In this document: positions 33,803-43,362 of the stretch, piece by piece | Numbering within the stretch: the stretch's first letter is position 1 | Layout of the letters: every line of letters begins with the position of its first letter | DNA from: Psychromonas sp. CD1 | GTDB taxonomy: Bacteria > Pseudomonadota > Gammaproteobacteria > Enterobacterales > Psychromonadaceae | Assembly (NCBI RefSeq): GCF_002239585.1 | Contig: NZ_NDFH01000003.1 | Coordinates: 1,054,001 to 1,118,000, forward strand | DNA: 64,000 nt | Reading direction: 5' to 3' | Program-made: the position numbers and the translations under genes | The notes under the pieces: model-generated | Database searches by the model: none | The model's input: only the letters and a program-made list of their open reading frames with translations | Told to the model about the DNA's origin: nothing

Positions 33803-33823
33803 CTTCAAAATATGGAATATACT

Positions 33824-34540
33824 ATGCAACTCAATAAAGAAATGGCTGAAAAAATATCCATCAGATCGATGCGGATCATTCAACATTCAGTGAATGTTAT
33901 GGATGAATTCGGCTTCATTATTGCATCTGGCGATCCAAGCCGAATTAATTGTCGCCATGAAGGCGCTTCACTTGCTATTAACGAAAATCGAATTATAGAA
34001 ATAAACCACGCGATGACACAACAACTTCGAGGCGTCAAAATCGGCATCAATTTCCCTATTTTATTTCAAAATAAAATCATTGGTGTTGTCGGCATTTCTG
34101 GCGAACCCTCTCATGTGCGCAAATATGGAGAGTTGGTTAAAATGACAGCTGAATTGATCATAGAGCAAGCTGCATTAATCACTGATATTCAGTGGAATAA
34201 ACGCCATTTAGAAGAGCTTGTTTTGCAACTGGTCACATCCTCAGATTTAAGTGAGGTACAATTACATAGCATTACACAACGTCTAAAAATAGATCCATTA
34301 CAAGAACGTATTGCCATTGTTGTCAAAGTGAATCCCGATAACGGACAATGCTTATCGCTCGAACATTTACAAAAAGTCGTACAATTACTGAATGCACAAG
34401 AACGAGATCTTATGGTGGCCATTGTTTCTATATCTAGAAATGAAATCTTAGTATTAAAACCGACTCAATTTAAAAATAAAAAATGGTGTTATAGTGCAGA
34501 GCATAACTGCATCTCTAATTTAATAGCCGTACTTCACTAA
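33824..34540 (+). pseudogene. CdaR-type sugar diacid regulator lacking its DNA-binding domain
   Basis: A 238-residue protein whose first ~130 residues match the CdaR (Diacid_rec) sensor domain: MRIIQHSVNVMDEFGFIIASGDPSRI, HEGASLAI, IGINFPILFQNKIIGVVGISGEP, VRKYGELVKMTAELIIEQA. Full-length CdaR has ~385 residues with a C-terminal PucR-type helix-turn-helix; here the frame stops mid-way and a terminator follows at once. No glycerate or glucarate genes are nearby. It is probably a truncated, non-DNA-binding remnant, though a free sensor domain cannot be excluded. ATG 33824 has GGA six bases upstream. Confidence 0.7.
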
Positions 34541-34590: not shown

Positions 34591-37500
34591 TTAAAGTGGC
34601 GTCACAATGTATAACAAGTCACCACTAGAAACTTGTTGACCATTATTGTTAATAATACGCTCGATACGGAACTTAGTATCGTGAGCATAAAGCTCTGCAT
34701 CAGGTTGATTAAAGCTTGATAATGTAATGGTTGAGAACATTTTCATTGCCTCCATCAAGCCTAATGTCTGCTCAATATTAACAATGTCCCCTTCTAATAC
34801 AAAGTCAGGCTCTGCAGGTGAGGAAGCGCGATAGAAAATCCCCGCACTTTGCGCAATGACTTTCAATTCATTACTACCTTCAACTCGAATCGAAACTGCA
34901 CTGCCACCCGTAGATGCTGACGCTTCTATTTCTTTTATCATGACATCTTGATCTAATCTAGCCATAAATTTAGGCAAGTACGTTGTATCATAAATACCTT
35001 TTAAGAATACCTCATCTTTTAAAATACGCAGTAACAAAGGTATGTTCGTTGCGATACCCGTAATTTCCACTTTTTCTAAGAATTTAATCAGTTTAGTTAT
35101 CGTATCATTTCGATTTTTACCCGAGCAGATAAATTGCGCCACTAAACTATCATAATAAGGAGAAACCTCTTTAGAACTTGCTATCATTGAAATAACTTCA
35201 ACATCATCTTGCTCTGGAATAATACATTTTTCTACTTTCCCAGGATACGGTAATAATTGCATGACTCCCTTCGCATCAAGTGTTGCTTTTTCAGCCGTCA
35301 CCCGAACTTCAATCGCATAACCTTTTTTAACGGGTTTCATATCCGCAATGCTTTCACCTGACGAAATGGCATATTGTGCACTTACGATATCAACACCTGA
35401 TGTGGCTTCCGTTACCGGATGCTCTACTTGAAGACGCGTGTTCATTTCCATAAAATAAATAGCATCTTCATCAAGATCATAAATAAATTCAACCGTACCT
35501 GCACCCATATAATCAACCGCATTGGCAAGGCTTTCGGTGTATGCCATCGCCTGCTCTTCTAATTTTTTAGGTAGCATTGTCGATGCAGATTCTTCAATTA
35601 TTTTTTGATTATTACGTTGTACTGAACAATCACGAATACCTAAGACACGTGTGTTGCCATATTTATCACGAAGTAATTGCACTTCAATATGTCGTAATGA
35701 TGTAATGTATTTCTCAAGATAAAGATCACCATTACCAAAGGCACTACGCGCCTCAGCAGATACTTGCGCAAAGCCACTGAACATATCTTCCGCTTTTTCA
35801 ATAGCAAGAATACCTTTACCCCCTCCACCATTAACAGCTTTAAGCAATACAGGATAGCCAATGCCATTGGCTATATCGAGAGCTTGCTCTGCTCCCGTTA
35901 ATATTCCGTGCGATCCAGGTACAACTGGAACACCGTGATCTTGCGCTGTTTTTATGGCGTTTGATTTATTACCCATCGTTAACATACTGTCCATGCTTGG
36001 ACCAATAAAGTTAATACCATGACCAACACAAAGATCTGCAAATTGGGGGCTTTCAGACAAGAAGCCAATACCGGGATGTAAGGCATCTACTTCTTCATAT
36101 TCTGCAATTTTCAAAACTGAATTTGCATTTAAATAACTTTCATCTGAAGTATTACCACCAAGACAAACTAAACGATCTCCAGCTCCTAACATATTTGCAG
36201 GTACCGAGGTCATATCAGGATCCGAGGCAACCAATACAACTTTAATATTGTTTTGTTGTGCGATACGAATTAATTTAACCGCAGTACAACCACGTGCATG
36301 CACTAATACTTTTTTCACTGGCTTCATTAATTGACGAGGATCGACTTGAGAATATTCATCATCAACAAGGCTACACACAGGTACAAATCCCGTTAATGCT
36401 CGTTGAATCGTTTCTTCAATCGATATCGTTGGCATTGGCATATTTGCATCAATATCGGTTAATTTAGCATTAAGATCATCAGAAAAAGGATTGATAACTA
36501 AACCATCCATTGCGCCAGGTACACGAGATAAATAGTTAGATAACGTTGATGTGGATGGTAAGTATGCTGGCACAACCATTTGTCCCGCAAAGGGCATATT
36601 CGTTCCAGATAGATAATAGGTTTGTACCATTGGATGCGTTACAAAACTTGCTTGTGCACCACCCGTACAGTCTCCATAACCAAATACTAGCACCGGTAAA
36701 TCATTATCACGAATAAAACGAGTGATTCGATCGTTGACAACTGCCATAGAAAATAGCGCACCCGCACCTTCTTTGGTTTGCATTCCACCCGAACTAATAA
36801 AAGCGACAACCGGTAAATGTTGTTTTGCACATTTAACTAATAATGCACAGAATTTTTCAGCGCTGGCCATATCAAAAGCACCCGCCTGAAAGGCAAGGTT
36901 AGAAAGCGCGATACCCACTTTTTGCTTTTCACCGCTTTCGAGTTTAAATTCACCGATTCCAGTCACTAAACCACAAGGTTTAATGTTTTTATCTAAGGCA
37001 TCTTCAACCGATAAACGAAAACCTGGAAACTCTAATAAATTGGCAGTCATTAAATCTTTATTGGACTCTTTAAAGTTAGTAAAAAACTTATCCAAAATAA
37101 CTTCATAGTAATTATTCTTTTTTCTTTTTTCAGTTTTTAATACCGCTTGAATTAATAGATCTTGATAGCCCATTGTTAAACGGTTCCAGAAATCTTTACG
37201 TCGTCCAATGCGAACAGGATTAATGACGCCATTATAATCTGCAATATTTTCTCTACTTGCATAATACGACGGAATGATTTTTTCAAATAAATAGGTCAAT
37301 ATAACAAACAAACTTGCATTCATTTGTGGGGCGCCAATACTTTTCCACTCTTCGACTTTAGCTAGAATATCTGCTCGCTCACTTTGATCTGTAAAGTAAC
37401 GTAACCAAAGATGGAAACTCGCTTTTAATTGCTCATAATTATCATCACTAACTTTATTTAAGGCCGCTTTTAATGAACTGCGCACTAAAGATGAAATCGA

Positions 37501-39153
37501 CTCACGAGATAACTTTTTGGTTGCCATTGCTTCTTTTGCAATAGACGCCAAATTACCCATTGTATTATCATATAACGCATTAAAAACCAAAATATGACGG
37601 CAATGTAAAATAAAACACTCACGTGTTTCTACGTGGCTAACCACATCAATACTTGTCAGGGTTTTCAATTCAGGCCAAGCATTGGTCAGAGGTAACGATT
37701 TTTCATCTTCTAGATGTGCAATTAATGCGCGAAAATTATCTTCAGCGCTACTTTTCCAGCGGTTATATAACGACCAAGTTAAATTAATTAATAATTTACT
37801 CCGTGCATTATCATAGTTTTCTTGAGGCTCACCTAAAATAAGTTTGGTAAAAATATTACGTTCAATGCCTTTATCTTCACGTTTGGATAGAAAAGATTTC
37901 CAATTTTTATTAAGCACATCATCATAAATTAACTTATCTGGGCTTTCTAACCAACTTCTAAATATTTGTTTTCTATTTGCTTCAATGCGTGCATTTAAAT
38001 CGCCTTCGGGAATCGTTAACTTAGATAGACGCCCATATTCATTTTTATGGATAGCTTTAATACGCGTTCGTAATGTCAAATAACGCATATAACGATAAGT
38101 AGTACCAAATGCATTATTATGTGAGGTGGGATTTTTTGCTATTAAATGTGCATGTTCAGAAGCGTTCTCAACTTCCATCAATTTACTCGACGGATCTAAA
38201 TAGCGCGATAAACTGCGATTATAATGCTCTAATATATCAGGATATTTACGTATGAATTTAACAGATGTAGATTCTATTGATAGAATACTTGATATGATCG
38301 CTTTTTGTAAATTATGTTGGCGTTCGTCTTTGTCTACTGGAGAAAAATCAACAATTCCATCAATGCACCCTTTTTCATAAAGCTCTTCAGGTGAAACACC
38401 TACAGACTGTGCGCATTCTTGCCACGACAAGTTATATTTACGCGCAATACTTTGTAAACCTTTAGGCTGAATCGTATTAAAAATACCATCACGCACTGAC
38501 AATAAGATATTTGCAGTAGCAAGAGGGATCGCGCCACCCGAATAGCCGACGCCCACAACAATACCAACCGTTGGTACATCAACATTGGCACTCTCGGTTA
38601 TCATTTGTGAAATACTATGCGCTTGGTTTTGACTGTTTGCACATTCTCCGGCATCCGCCCCTGGAGTATCAATCAAATACACAATAGGCAAGGATAAATC
38701 AGCAAATTTACGAATCGCTTTACTGGCCTCTAAATGATGCTCAGGCATCCAAGCTCCGTTATTAGAGCTACGCTCTTGAGCAATAATACCAATACGACGC
38801 CAATAACCACCAAAATCTAATTCCATTTCTACACTATAGAAAGCGCCATTGGCATGCTCTGTAATTATTTTACCGTTAAGACCCGCTATAATATGTTTCG
38901 AACCTGGACGTTTATTATCTTCTGCGGGTTGCACGGTACGTTCTATATATGCATCAACATCCATTTTTTTTATGAGCGACAAATTAGATTTAATACGTTC
39001 GATCGCAATTAAACCTTCTAAGTTTTTAGTATTAGATGGTAAAGAATTATCTGGAAATAGAGAAAAGTCTTTGGCGATATGCTCAGCATGAATAAAAAGC
39101 GGATCCGCAATCTTATTACTTTCAAACTGAGAAGAGGAAGGTTTTCCTGACAT
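34591..39153 (-). CDS. Single-chain biotin-dependent acyl-CoA carboxylase (CT-alpha/CT-beta/BC/BCCP)
   Basis: One 1,520-residue chain contains a complete carboxylase. Residues ~80-290: AccA-like carboxyltransferase half (DTPGADAGE, GVGYSGGAIPLA). ~300-650: helical linker. ~660-930: AccD-like half (AFISSGGMQTKEG, GYGDCTGGAQASF), without the AccD zinc ribbon. ~946-1395: biotin carboxylase (GGGGKGI ATP-grasp loop, RDCSVQR, MNTRLQVEHPVTE). ~1430-1520: carrier domain with biotinyl Lys1471 in EAMKM. It should turn acetyl- (or another acyl-) CoA, bicarbonate and ATP into malonyl-CoA. In the conserved QRRHQK motif of the carboxylase this protein reads QRNNQK. Acyl-CoA specificity cannot be read from sequence. 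Separate accABCD genes are not in the window. Confidence 0.9.
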   Translation of the reverse strand: MSGKPSSSQFESNKIADPLFIHAEHIAKDFSLFPDNSLPSNTKNLEGLIAIERIKSNLSLIKKMDVDAYIERTVQPAEDNKRPGSKHIIAGLNGKIITEHANGAFYSVEMELDFGGYWRRIGIIAQERSSNNGAWMPEHHLEASKAIRKFADLSLPIVYLIDTPGADAGECANSQNQAHSISQMITESANVDVPTVGIVVGVGYSGGAIPLATANILLSVRDGIFNTIQPKGLQSIARKYNLSWQECAQSVGVSPEELYEKGCIDGIVDFSPVDKDERQHNLQKAIISSILSIESTSVKFIRKYPDILEHYNRSLSRYLDPSSKLMEVENASEHAHLIAKNPTSHNNAFGTTYRYMRYLTLRTRIKAIHKNEYGRLSKLTIPEGDLNARIEANRKQIFRSWLESPDKLIYDDVLNKNWKSFLSKREDKGIERNIFTKLILGEPQENYDNARSKLLINLTWSLYNRWKSSAEDNFRALIAHLEDEKSLPLTNAWPELKTLTSIDVVSHVETRECFILHCRHILVFNALYDNTMGNLASIAKEAMATKKLSRESISSLVRSSLKAALNKVSDDNYEQLKASFHLWLRYFTDQSERADILAKVEEWKSIGAPQMNASLFVILTYLFEKIIPSYYASRENIADYNGVINPVRIGRRKDFWNRLTMGYQDLLIQAVLKTEKRKKNNYYEVILDKFFTNFKESNKDLMTANLLEFPGFRLSVEDALDKNIKPCGLVTGIGEFKLESGEKQKVGIALSNLAFQAGAFDMASAEKFCALLVKCAKQHLPVVAFISSGGMQTKEGAGALFSMAVVNDRITRFIRDNDLPVLVFGYGDCTGGAQASFVTHPMVQTYYLSGTNMPFAGQMVVPAYLPSTSTLSNYLSRVPGAMDGLVINPFSDDLNAKLTDIDANMPMPTISIEETIQRALTGFVPVCSLVDDEYSQVDPRQLMKPVKKVLVHARGCTAVKLIRIAQQNNIKVVLVASDPDMTSVPANMLGAGDRLVCLGGNTSDESYLNANSVLKIAEYEEVDALHPGIGFLSESPQFADLCVGHGINFIGPSMDSMLTMGNKSNAIKTAQDHGVPVVPGSHGILTGAEQALDIANGIGYPVLLKAVNGGGGKGILAIEKAEDMFSGFAQVSAEARSAFGNGDLYLEKYITSLRHIEVQLLRDKYGNTRVLGIRDCSVQRNNQKIIEESASTMLPKKLEEQAMAYTESLANAVDYMGAGTVEFIYDLDEDAIYFMEMNTRLQVEHPVTEATSGVDIVSAQYAISSGESIADMKPVKKGYAIEVRVTAEKATLDAKGVMQLLPYPGKVEKCIIPEQDDVEVISMIASSKEVSPYYDSLVAQFICSGKNRNDTITKLIKFLEKVEITGIATNIPLLLRILKDEVFLKGIYDTTYLPKFMARLDQDVMIKEIEASASTGGSAVSIRVEGSNELKVIAQSAGIFYRASSPAEPDFVLEGDIVNIEQTLGLMEAMKMFSTITLSSFNQPDAELYAHDTKFRIERIINNNGQQVSSGDLLYIVTPL

Positions 39154-39319
39154 ACAATACCCTTACAAATAGTGATGAAAAATATATTTATACCCAGCCT
39201 CTTGAATCTGCCTTTTAAGTGGTTTGGGTAATTGAACACGCTAATTTACAACTAATTAACTAGCTAAGCCAGTATTGATTTAAAATCTGCCCATAATTAC
39301 AAATTTCAACGTTACAAAT

Positions 39320-39361
39320 AACAATAAACCCTGTTAATGTCAATTAACAGGGTTTATTGTT
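39320..39361. terminator. Terminator between malic enzyme and carboxylase genes
   Basis: A 19-bp perfect stem (AACAATAAACCCTGTTAAT with its complement) and 4-base loop. It lies 12 bp after the malic enzyme stop and about 165 bp before the carboxylase start, so the two genes probably have separate promoters. Confidence 0.9.
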
Positions 39362-39372
39362 ATTAACTATTA

Positions 39373-40614
39373 TTACGCCATATAATCGTCAGCGAGCTCC
39401 ACCTGCGCAACGCCTGTTGCAACCGCCGCACGAGCAACCGCCCCTGCTACTTTTTTCAATAAACGCGGATCCATCGGTTTCGGAATAATATAATCTTTAC
39501 CAAACTCTAATGCACTCTCACCACTCGCTTTAAGCACTGCCTTCGAGACTGGCAATTTGGCAATTTCACGAATGGCATGAACCGCTGCCACTTTCATTGC
39601 CGCATTTATTTCTGTTGCGCGCGCATCTAAAGCGCCACGGAAAATAAAAGGAAAACACAATACGTTATTTACTTGGTTTGGATAATCACTACGCCCTGTG
39701 GCCATGATTAAATCATCACGCACTGCATGTGCGACATCTGGTCGGATCTCTGGGTCTGGGTTTGAACATGCAAATATAATTGGATTTTTAGCCATCTGCT
39801 TTACATTTTCTGCAGACAATAAGTTTGGTCCCGAGACGCCAACAAAAACATCCGCTCCCTCCATCACATCCGTCAAAGTACGTTTATCCGTTTGTCTTGC
39901 GTAACGTTGTTTATATTCATTGATATCATCGCGCTGAGTATGGATAACCCCTTTCCGATCTAGCATATATATATGCTCTCGTGATGCGCCACATTCGACT
40001 AATAAATCCATACAAGCAATCGCAGCAGCACCTGCGCCAAGACAAACAATTTTAGCCTGAGCAAGATGCTTACCTTGCACCTCTAATGCATTAAGCATAG
40101 CAGCAGACGTTACAATTGCAGTGCCGTGTTGATCATCATGAAATACAGGAATAGAACAACGCGCTTGTAATTGTTTTTCAATCTCAAAACATTCAGGTGC
40201 TTTAATGTCTTCTAAATTTATTCCACCAAAGGTGTCGGCAATACTCGCCACTGTATTAACAAATTCATCCAACGTTTTATGTTTCACTTCAATATCGATA
40301 CTATCAATATTTGCAAAGCGTTTAAACAATAACGCCTTACCTTCCATAACCGGTTTTGACGCAAGTGGGCCTAAATTTCCCAACCCTAAAATAGCAGTGC
40401 CATTCGTTATCACCGCAATAAGATTACCTTTAATCGTATATTTATATACATCATCAGCATTCTTAGCAATTTCACGCACAGGCTCTGCAACACCGGGACT
40501 ATATGCTAGGGAAAGATCATCGGCCGTTTCAGCTGATGTCGTAATTTCTATACTTATTTTACCTGGACGAGGATACGCATGGTAATCAAGCGCTTGTTGA
40601 CGTAAATCTGACAT
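39373..40614 (-). CDS. Malic enzyme, short form (oxaloacetate-decarboxylating malate dehydrogenase)
   Basis: A 413-residue malic enzyme: L-malate + NAD(P)+ to pyruvate + CO2 + NAD(P)H. Blocks: LAYSPGVAEPVREI, ITNGTAILGLGNLGPLASKPVMEGKA (split), EDIKAPECFEIE, FHDDQHGTAIV and a Rossmann CLGAGAAAIAC. It lacks the phosphotransacetylase-like C-terminal domain fused in E. coli MaeB. The cofactor cannot be read safely. Its position beside the single-chain carboxylase suggests a role in pyruvate/NADPH supply for fatty acid synthesis, but a terminator separates them. Confidence 0.93.
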   Translation of the reverse strand: MSDLRQQALDYHAYPRPGKISIEITTSAETADDLSLAYSPGVAEPVREIAKNADDVYKYTIKGNLIAVITNGTAILGLGNLGPLASKPVMEGKALLFKRFANIDSIDIEVKHKTLDEFVNTVASIADTFGGINLEDIKAPECFEIEKQLQARCSIPVFHDDQHGTAIVTSAAMLNALEVQGKHLAQAKIVCLGAGAAAIACMDLLVECGASREHIYMLDRKGVIHTQRDDINEYKQRYARQTDKRTLTDVMEGADVFVGVSGPNLLSAENVKQMAKNPIIFACSNPDPEIRPDVAHAVRDDLIMATGRSDYPNQVNNVLCFPFIFRGALDARATEINAAMKVAAVHAIREIAKLPVSKAVLKASGESALEFGKDYIIPKPMDPRLLKKVAGAVARAAVATGVAQVELADDYMA

Positions 40615-41291: not shown

Positions 41292-42659
41292 TTATTCGCT
41301 CATCACAACTTGTAGCGCTTCATCTAATAATTCCTCAACGCTATAATTCTTAGTTGCTAAACCAAAATTAAACGCGGCACTTCTAGCATCACGTAACTCA
41401 CAATAATTATATATTACTCGGTGTATTTCAAATACATTATCAATAACGGACATGCTATTTACTTTCTTATTCATTTGAGCATCTAAATAGGCATAATAAC
41501 GTGTAATACCTTGAGTATTTTGAAGTTCAAAATGAGAGGCTTTGTTAAGTACAGGCGTGATTGCGCAATGTGCTCCTAAAGTATTAGTATACCAAGAATC
41601 TTTCCACCAACCTATCGGTTTGCCCGTTAGATTGTAAGGTGTTGCCGTCTTTATAGTTTGACCGACAAAAAAGTAAACTTCGGCCTTACCCTGAATAATG
41701 TCTACATCGCATGCCATTAACACACCCGCACGAAGGGTGCTTTCATGTTCGATAATATGCGTATAGGATTCGACATTTTGGGTAAATCCAGAGAGTAATT
41801 GAAAATGAATATAAGCCACTTTATCTGGGTAAATTAATCGACATTTCGTGATGGGACGCAAATCCCCCACTATTAGCTGTTCAAAATGATGCCGATGTAA
41901 ATTTTGTTGATAGCGATCTATTAATACATTTTCTATATTATCTGAATCGATACTTTTAATTGTAGTGTTTTTTGTTTCTTTATATAAAAAACATGCTTCA
42001 AAATTATTTTGTGTCATATTATTAGTTTGTAATAAAATATAACCACTTTCCTCCTCGGCGCTAAACAATGTATATACGCCCCGCTGGTGCGCAAATTTAA
42101 GGAGACGCCCCTCACTATGTACGACTAACGACTTATTATTTATTTTTGACTGTTCTTGTATACGGCTAAAATTACCGAGAATGATGGCTAATTTATCTAA
42201 ATAAAAATAATATAAACGTGCTGATAATTGTGTTTCATGCATCACGCTTGTGGTGTTTTTATAATTTAAGACAGATGATAATACACGCTTTAATACGTCT
42301 ATTTTTTTATAGCTTTTCATAGAAAATACAGTATGACATTGGCTACATTTTTTACGTTGAGTACCCGACGAGGTAAAACCATGTAGTTTTGATGTGACAG
42401 GTTTATTTAAAAAATAATAAGGATGACATTTGGGGCACCCTATTAATTTACGACCAAAGTGTAATTGAATTTTTTCTTTTAAAACTTGACTAACCAGATC
42501 ATTGTTTATCCATGGGGAATAGCTACCGCAAAGTGCACAACCCGTTGAAACATAACCCAACCTCTCACTTTTGTAACTGTATTCAACATTTCCCGTTTTG
42601 CCTAAATTTGCACATCCCACTGTTTTACAACAATTGAAATCTTTTCTAAAGTTTATCAA
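41292..42659 (-). CDS. Unrecognised 455-residue Cys-pair (zinc-ribbon-like) protein
   Basis: The first ~115 residues carry several cysteine pairs: Cys10/11 and 16, Cys41-Cys44 (GCALCGS), Cys75-Cys78 (GCPKCHP) and Cys105-Cys108 (CSQCHT), suggesting two zinc ribbons. A helix-rich stretch (about 117-165) follows, then a beta-rich domain (SLVVHSEGRLLKFAHQRG, GYILLQTNNM) and an Arg/His-rich segment (QNLHRHHFEQL). The zinc-ribbon plus helices layout recalls transposase N-termini of IS1/IS1595 type, but I see no convincing DDE triad. There is no signal peptide or membrane span. It is divergent from an orphan HTH gene at 42985. Function unknown; a domesticated transposase is one hypothesis. Confidence 0.6.
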   Translation of the reverse strand: MINFRKDFNCCKTVGCANLGKTGNVEYSYKSERLGYVSTGCALCGSYSPWINNDLVSQVLKEKIQLHFGRKLIGCPKCHPYYFLNKPVTSKLHGFTSSGTQRKKCSQCHTVFSMKSYKKIDVLKRVLSSVLNYKNTTSVMHETQLSARLYYFYLDKLAIILGNFSRIQEQSKINNKSLVVHSEGRLLKFAHQRGVYTLFSAEEESGYILLQTNNMTQNNFEACFLYKETKNTTIKSIDSDNIENVLIDRYQQNLHRHHFEQLIVGDLRPITKCRLIYPDKVAYIHFQLLSGFTQNVESYTHIIEHESTLRAGVLMACDVDIIQGKAEVYFFVGQTIKTATPYNLTGKPIGWWKDSWYTNTLGAHCAITPVLNKASHFELQNTQGITRYYAYLDAQMNKKVNSMSVIDNVFEIHRVIYNYCELRDARSAAFNFGLATKNYSVEELLDEALQVVMSE

Positions 42660-42984: not shown

Positions 42985-43362
42985 ATGAAAAACAATTTAA
43001 AAGAAATAATTTCCAGCACCACTAATGCGCGGCATAGGATCCGTTTACTGGCAATTTATCATTTTAATAGTGGTAAAAATCGCACGCAAATCGCACAATA
43101 TTTACAAGTAAGTAGACATAGTGTTAATGGCTGGGTTAAAAAATATTTAGAACAGGGCCTAACGGCATTAGAAGAAAAAAAGCATCCAGGAAGACCCAAT
43201 AAATTAAATGAAAAACAAAAAGAAGATATGCTTAATTTTATTGCGGCACTGCAACAAAATCACATCAAAAAGAGCATACAAGCCGATGAAATAAGACTCT
43301 TTCTGTTAGAAAAATATTCTGTTCTTTATCAAAAAAGTAATATTTATAAATTACTTCAATAA
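42985..43362 (+). CDS. IS630-type helix-turn-helix protein, orphan or truncated
   Basis: A 125-residue protein equal to the DNA-binding N-terminus of IS630/Tc1-type transposases: RHRIRLLAIYHFNSGKNRTQ, IAQYLQVSRHSVNGWVKKYL, ALEEKKHPGRPNKL and a second winged-helix part (QADEIRLFLLEKYSVLYQKS). The catalytic DDE domain does not follow. The frame is intact with a clean stop, so it may be either a fossil that still reads through or a captured DNA-binding protein. An IS630 C-terminal fragment of the same family is at 58590-59222. Confidence 0.65.
   Translation: MKNNLKEIISSTTNARHRIRLLAIYHFNSGKNRTQIAQYLQVSRHSVNGWVKKYLEQGLTALEEKKHPGRPNKLNEKQKEDMLNFIAALQQNHIKKSIQADEIRLFLLEKYSVLYQKSNIYKLLQ

Follow-up and report, generated by a model that had tools for sequence, protein, structure and literature searches.

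A carboxylase with all of its domains on one chain

The window is the whole 64,000-nucleotide stretch of Psychromonas sp. CD1 analysed here (contig NZ_NDFH01000003.1, positions 1,054,001 to 1,118,000). Its minus strand carries an uninterrupted open reading frame (ORF) of 1,520 aa with an ATG start (34591..39153), which we assign to accS (AccADCB), the gene for a putative single-chain acetyl-CoA carboxylase, from the ORF itself, a match to solved structures and the ratio of non-synonymous to synonymous substitution rates (dN/dS). Pfam and NCBIfam searches placed on the one chain, in this order, the alpha half of the carboxyltransferase (CT), a helical linker, CT-beta, biotin carboxylase (BC) and the biotin carboxyl carrier protein domain (BCCP), bearing out the order proposed in an earlier note made from the sequence alone. 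Escherichia coli AccA, AccD, AccC and AccB align along the chain in that order, with 30, 25, 38 and 25% identity.

The CT-alpha (AccA-like) core spans residues 129-290 (38284..38769; all features within accS are on the minus strand) and is matched by PF03255 at 4.9e-25 and by E. coli AccA with 30% identity over residues 131-268. CT-beta (AccD-like), with approximate boundaries at residues 691-925 (36379..37083), gives a weak AccD-like match at 692-861 (36.6 bits; TIGR00515 at 3e-9, under its cut-off) and aligns with E. coli AccD over 752-908. No CxxC motif is present in the whole 1,520-aa chain, E. coli AccD having two, and thus the AccD zinc ribbon is absent, as the earlier note had stated. 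BC covers residues 946-1399 (34957..36318; PF00289, PF02786 and PF02785). Compared with E. coli AccC, it is identical at 16 of 18 checked positions, including K116, K159, H209, K238, E276, E288, N290, R292, E296 and R338, the two departures being R167 to Lys and H236 to Asn. BCCP occupies residues 1430-1520 (34594..34866), with TIGR00531 at 1.2e-10 and NF005457 at 7.4e-11, both below cut-off, and an AMKM motif at residues 1469-1472, the lysine of which is the established biotin acceptor (K1471, codon 34741..34743). The Pfam biotinyl domain at ~1430-1477 scores 16.8 bits for a cut-off of 22.1, and, among the 25 NCBIfam models listed (of 43), not one reaches its own cut-off on the chain; such scores are expected for a divergent fusion.

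The gene is under strong purifying selection: relative to three genus-mates, dN/dS is 0.036 (nearest), 0.051 and 0.048, with a synonymous divergence (dS) of ~1.0, 2.0 and 2.4, the latter two comparisons being near saturation.

The window protein matches AccS of Shewanella oneidensis

Searching solved structures with phmmer gave a 2,260-bit match, spanning residues 14-1520, to PDB 9kkm/9w4a, "Acetyl-CoA carboxylase multifunctional enzyme AccADCB"; the next match, at 344 bits, covered BC only. The predicted structure of the CT part (31-row alignment, pLDDT 76.0) likewise put 9kkm top in a fold search (TMq 0.84, 63% identity), followed by AccA/AccD-type transferases, which ranked above PCC and MCC types. 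According to its title, 9kkm is a cryo-EM structure of the holoenzyme dimer from S. oneidensis, mutant E1238A, released on 2025-11-19; no paper describing it was found in a literature search. Going by the offset of the alignment, E1238 of 9kkm should correspond to E1244 of the window protein, which is aligned with E. coli AccC E296, a residue that we take to be the BC catalytic base.

In the published record, excerpts of PMC4793157 present S. oneidensis SO_0840 (AccS, 1,517 aa) as a single-gene acetyl-CoA carboxylase and mention an extra AccB, SO_0511. Excerpts of PMC11602165 describe an AccS of ~170 kDa that is biotinylated in vivo, with a domain order unlike the eukaryotic one, whose gene is activated by the divergent LysR-type gene accR; an accR mutant, poor in AccS, has a growth defect that either accS or the E. 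coli genes accA, accD and accBC can correct. A multifunctional acetyl-CoA carboxylase gene, acc, is also reported in Shewanella xiamenensis, beside lysR and downstream of bla-OXA genes (PMC3480492, in excerpt), and accADCB is listed in Berkiella, the excerpt not stating whether as one gene or several (PMC9803151). The window enzyme is, by this comparison, the already known AccS/AccADCB and not a new kind. The earlier note had treated the role of the protein as open; S. oneidensis AccS supplies the counter-case that the note itself had named, a close, characterized orthologue alike in architecture and function, as judged from the 2,260-bit match, the CT identity, the cryo-EM structure, the biotinylation in vivo and the rescue of the accR mutant.

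A helical linker separates the transferase halves

The linker (residues 292-690; 37084..38280), modelled alone with AlphaFold2 from a 28-row alignment, is nearly entirely helix (pLDDT 80.9). This prediction, proposed in the earlier note, upheld the helical character claimed there; the length did not stand, as the linker measures about 400 residues (roughly 292-690) and not ~350. At 399 residues, it compares with 500-529 in 30 aligned relatives from the collection of named loci. 9kkm was the sole PDB fold match at E <= 0.001 (next, E 0.38) and the only strong match in a profile search, 9jih following at E 0.039. No Pfam family was found for the window's linker, a weak DUF5870 match appearing in only 1 of 28 members, and the search for kinship to another known fold led nowhere. 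Judging from the model and these searches, the helical linker is specific to the AccS family.

AccS takes the place of accABCD in the order

At 1.69 Mb in 3 contigs, the window's own genome (79.9% complete) contains no Carboxyl_trans, AccA or Biotin_carb_C match outside accS. Away from accS there are five biotinyl/lipoyl matches, the ORFs concerned measuring 336, 403, 476 and (two) 522 aa. A stand-alone BCCP was not found in this genome, the BCCP model matching only accS, below its cut-off; fabD and birA are both present. A second acetyl-CoA carboxylase elsewhere in this incomplete genome was therefore rejected, domain searches having found none.

We then compared 197 genomes of the same order, using AccS residues 1-940 as query and a threshold of E 1e-20. 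AccS was detected in 29 of them: 13 in the window's genus (g1, own genome included), 4 in genus g12 of family f12 and 12 in genus g6 of family f6, the last being presumably Shewanella given the published work and the 1,517-aa length of its AccS. None of these 29 has a canonical-strength AccA, so that no genome of the sample holds both: their best AccA matches, ~6e-26 to 4e-28, resemble that of the window's own AccS (3.7e-26), canonical AccA scoring 1e-141 or better. Among the other 168 genomes, all without AccS, 158 have AccA at 1e-141 or better, and it is weaker or missing in ten (1.4e-88 in G127, 1.3e-43 in G111, 1.2e-7 in G096, none in seven). Six of the seven genomes lacking both AccA and AccS are of 200-300 kb and belong to family f24, the seventh being G063. 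In a sample of the class, AccS occurs in 6 of 369 genomes, own included, and 13 of 14 more distant AccS carriers lack canonical-strength AccA, G362 having both kinds. The earlier note had presumed an accABCD set elsewhere and a role beside it. No second set was found in the own genome, and in the window's order these comparisons indicate that the one-chain AccS stands in for accABCD and not beside it.

Remnants of the four-protein enzyme

We searched 34 AccS genomes for BCCP at the curated cut-off, and five exceeded it: G362 and, in g6, 4 genomes out of 12. An AccC of 456-495 aa is encoded as well in G089, G133 and G171, and G182, the remaining one of the four, is without it. The remnants, accB-accC in three genomes and accB alone in one (loci L200, L202, L203 and L201), adjoin aroQ, encoding a type II dehydroquinase, which precedes accB in all four. 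A short-chain dehydrogenase gene follows accB in G182, and a similar gene follows accC in G171. We read these patterns in g6 as stages of loss. Unlike in E. coli, neither panF nor prmA was found near the g6 remnants in the stretches examined; in G362, prmA comes after accB-accC. Neither g1 (13 genomes) nor g12 (4 genomes) yielded a BCCP above cut-off or a BC protein of AccC size. Another BC-containing ORF is present in four g1 genomes (1,205-1,242 aa) and in all 12 g6 genomes (664-729 aa).

The BC domains of AccS form one clade

In the phylogeny suggested by the earlier note, built from 31 chosen BC domains, the 20 AccS domains fall into one group of their own (support 100/100), several branches within it being unresolved. 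The 11 others comprise AccC, MCC-alpha-like and longer carboxylases, with no actinobacterial or eukaryotic one-chain enzyme among them. The three AccC remnants taken from AccS genomes cluster with E. coli AccC. The clade fits one old fusion, not a local one. A recent fusion of a local accC was rejected, since the BC of AccS shares 38% identity with E. coli AccC and forms its own clade, while the remnant AccC proteins sit with E. coli AccC.

To the excerpted account of AccS as belonging to a "small group of bacteria" (PMC11602165) we can add a search through 84,980 species genomes, made with an alignment of six CT parts and confined to two peptide patterns. It confirmed 391 stretches and retained 80; confirmation being loose (E 1e-3), the hits include at most 391 true AccS. 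Titles of the 80 kept stretches name Gammaproteobacteria, Pseudomonadales, Proteobacteria and genera such as Thalassolituus, Oceanobacter and Bacterioplanes, with one giving a K189A clade only. The scan suggests that AccS is more widely spread than that account implies.

Gene neighbourhood and regulation

Directly upstream of accS and on the same strand lies a gene for a 413-aa malic enzyme (39373-40614, minus strand), which covers only positions 7-413 of the 764 positions of its best model. A hairpin with a 20-bp stem, listed on the plus strand and probably a terminator, stands between the two genes (39317..39364), and a search for the malic enzyme gene in 5 genus-mate stretches succeeded in only three (L085, L087 and L088), not in L086 or L089. 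Given the hairpin and this patchy occurrence, co-transcription with accS was rejected as the best reading. The element GTTGTAAATTA upstream of accS (39242..39252, minus strand), common to 9 of 9 upstream regions from the genus, is possibly part of the core promoter. A sigma-70 scan upstream of accS found no promoter on the accS strand; it found sites on the plus strand only, two where 1.9 are expected.

In all five stretches from g12 and g6 (L080-L084), a LysR-type gene diverges from accS, with LysR domains confirmed for L080 and L083, and its position and the mutual similarity of these genes lead us to read it as a probable accR. At E 1e-5, no accR homologue was detected beside accS in any of six g1 loci (the window and L085-L089), the search covering the stretches around accS only, nor in five stretches from more distant families (L075-L079). 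As neither group shows it beside accS, accR may have been lost in g1 or gained late in g12 and g6. Among the 80 named loci, accR-like matches of ~30% identity occur in two, L113 and L122. The palindrome TTCC-N6-GGAA occurs in 3/3 upstream regions of g12, 0/3 of g6 and 0/9 of g1, too little for an AccR site to be called.

Three further ORFs were noted around these genes. A 242-aa CdaR-like protein (33812-34540, plus strand), probably a shortened regulator, aligns with the CdaR model (385 positions) from position 4 to 236 only and has no match over 100 aa in the other neighbourhood loci. A 455-aa protein (41292-42659, minus strand) has no Pfam match at E 1e-5 and recurs in 2 of 5 genus-mate stretches. 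A 125-aa ORF (42985-43362, plus strand) carries helix-turn-helix domains, presumably of the kind seen in transposases, and is possibly a transposon remnant.

Proposed function and alternative explanations

Taken together, the gene is very probably accS, encoding the organism's only acetyl-CoA carboxylase and supplying type II fatty-acid synthesis. In the proposed cycle, BC (946-1399) would use ATP and bicarbonate to carboxylate the biotin on K1471 of BCCP; BCCP would then swing to the active site built by the CT-alpha and CT-beta halves, which would pass the carboxyl group to acetyl-CoA, yielding malonyl-CoA, which FabD and type II fatty-acid synthesis would draw on. Joining the transferase halves, the helical linker (292-690) would probably organize the homodimer. 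For the window protein, we infer the substrate, the swinging step and the role of the linker.

Several points weigh against this assignment. Support for the acetyl-CoA activity of the window protein consists of sequence comparison and the orthologue. At 79.9% completeness, the absence of a gene from the own genome could be an assembly gap, an objection tempered by the 12 near-complete genus-mates, all of which also lack canonical-strength AccA. The weak AccA matches of the order sample were taken as AccS from their E-values and the AccS search, not from positions, and the search for canonical AccD (PF01039) covered the own genome only. Moreover, AccS is not always the sole enzyme: G362 (L076, L204), from outside the order, combines it with canonical AccA, AccB and AccC.

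This last genome also bears on the idea that the protein is a side-pathway carboxylase for propionyl-CoA or a longer acyl-CoA, working beside a normal AccABCD. Bacterial single-chain carboxylases can use other acyl-CoAs, and another of these enzymes, PDB 5fif, is among the distant fold matches. We nevertheless consider such a role very improbable: the own genome has no AccA, AccC, BCCP or second carboxyltransferase besides accS, the 29 AccS genomes of the order are uniform in lacking canonical-strength AccA, AccA/AccD-type folds come before PCC and MCC types once 9kkm is set aside, and, in the excerpted report, E. coli acc genes compensate for low AccS in S. oneidensis (PMC11602165). Even less credible is the idea that the genome is shrinking like that of a symbiont and that the gene is decaying or no longer functional. 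The intact 1,520-codon frame, the retained catalytic residues, the dN/dS of 0.036-0.051 and the failure to find any other acetyl-CoA carboxylase all argue for a working gene, although the own genome, at 1.69 Mb and incomplete, is small next to the 3.1-4.7 Mb of 12 sampled genus-mates.

With AccS as the acetyl-CoA carboxylase of this organism, one may go further and propose, tentatively and at somewhat less than even chance, that AccS has fully displaced accABCD in g1, down to the remnant accB and accC, and operates in the absence of the dedicated acetyl-CoA-responsive activator AccR, lost or never gained. If true, the committed step of fatty-acid synthesis would depend on a single autonomous gene under other control. 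The discovery value is small, the architecture, structure and regulation being known from Shewanella, and what is useful here is evolutionary: one BC-domain clade, aroQ-accB(-accC) remnants in 4 of 12 g6 genomes, and no accR beside g1 accS. Because some AccS genomes keep accB or accBC remnants, it may be possible to follow, at several stages, how a fused enzyme replaced an essential one of several subunits.

Comparison with known systems

The closest known system is S. oneidensis AccS, with which the window protein shares the domain order, the length (1,517 versus 1,520 aa), the helical linker and near full-length similarity. They differ in that accS diverges from accR in S. oneidensis (PMC11602165, in excerpt), whereas the window has no accR homologue at E 1e-5, and in the extra AccB, SO_0511 (PMC4793157, in excerpt), no such protein being found in the window's own genome. 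With E. coli AccABCD it has in common the four functional units and transferase halves of AccA and AccD type, but the E. coli enzyme is made of four separate proteins, with a zinc ribbon in AccD, and the window BC, 38% identical, belongs to a separate clade. Eukaryotic one-chain carboxylases run in the order BC-BCCP-CT, whereas the window enzyme has CT first, with the AccA-like half before the AccD-like half. What it shares with the eukaryotic-type and actinobacterial one-chain carboxylases, such as the Saccharopolyspora multidomain enzyme (excerpts of PMC6491548), is the presence of all activities on one chain.

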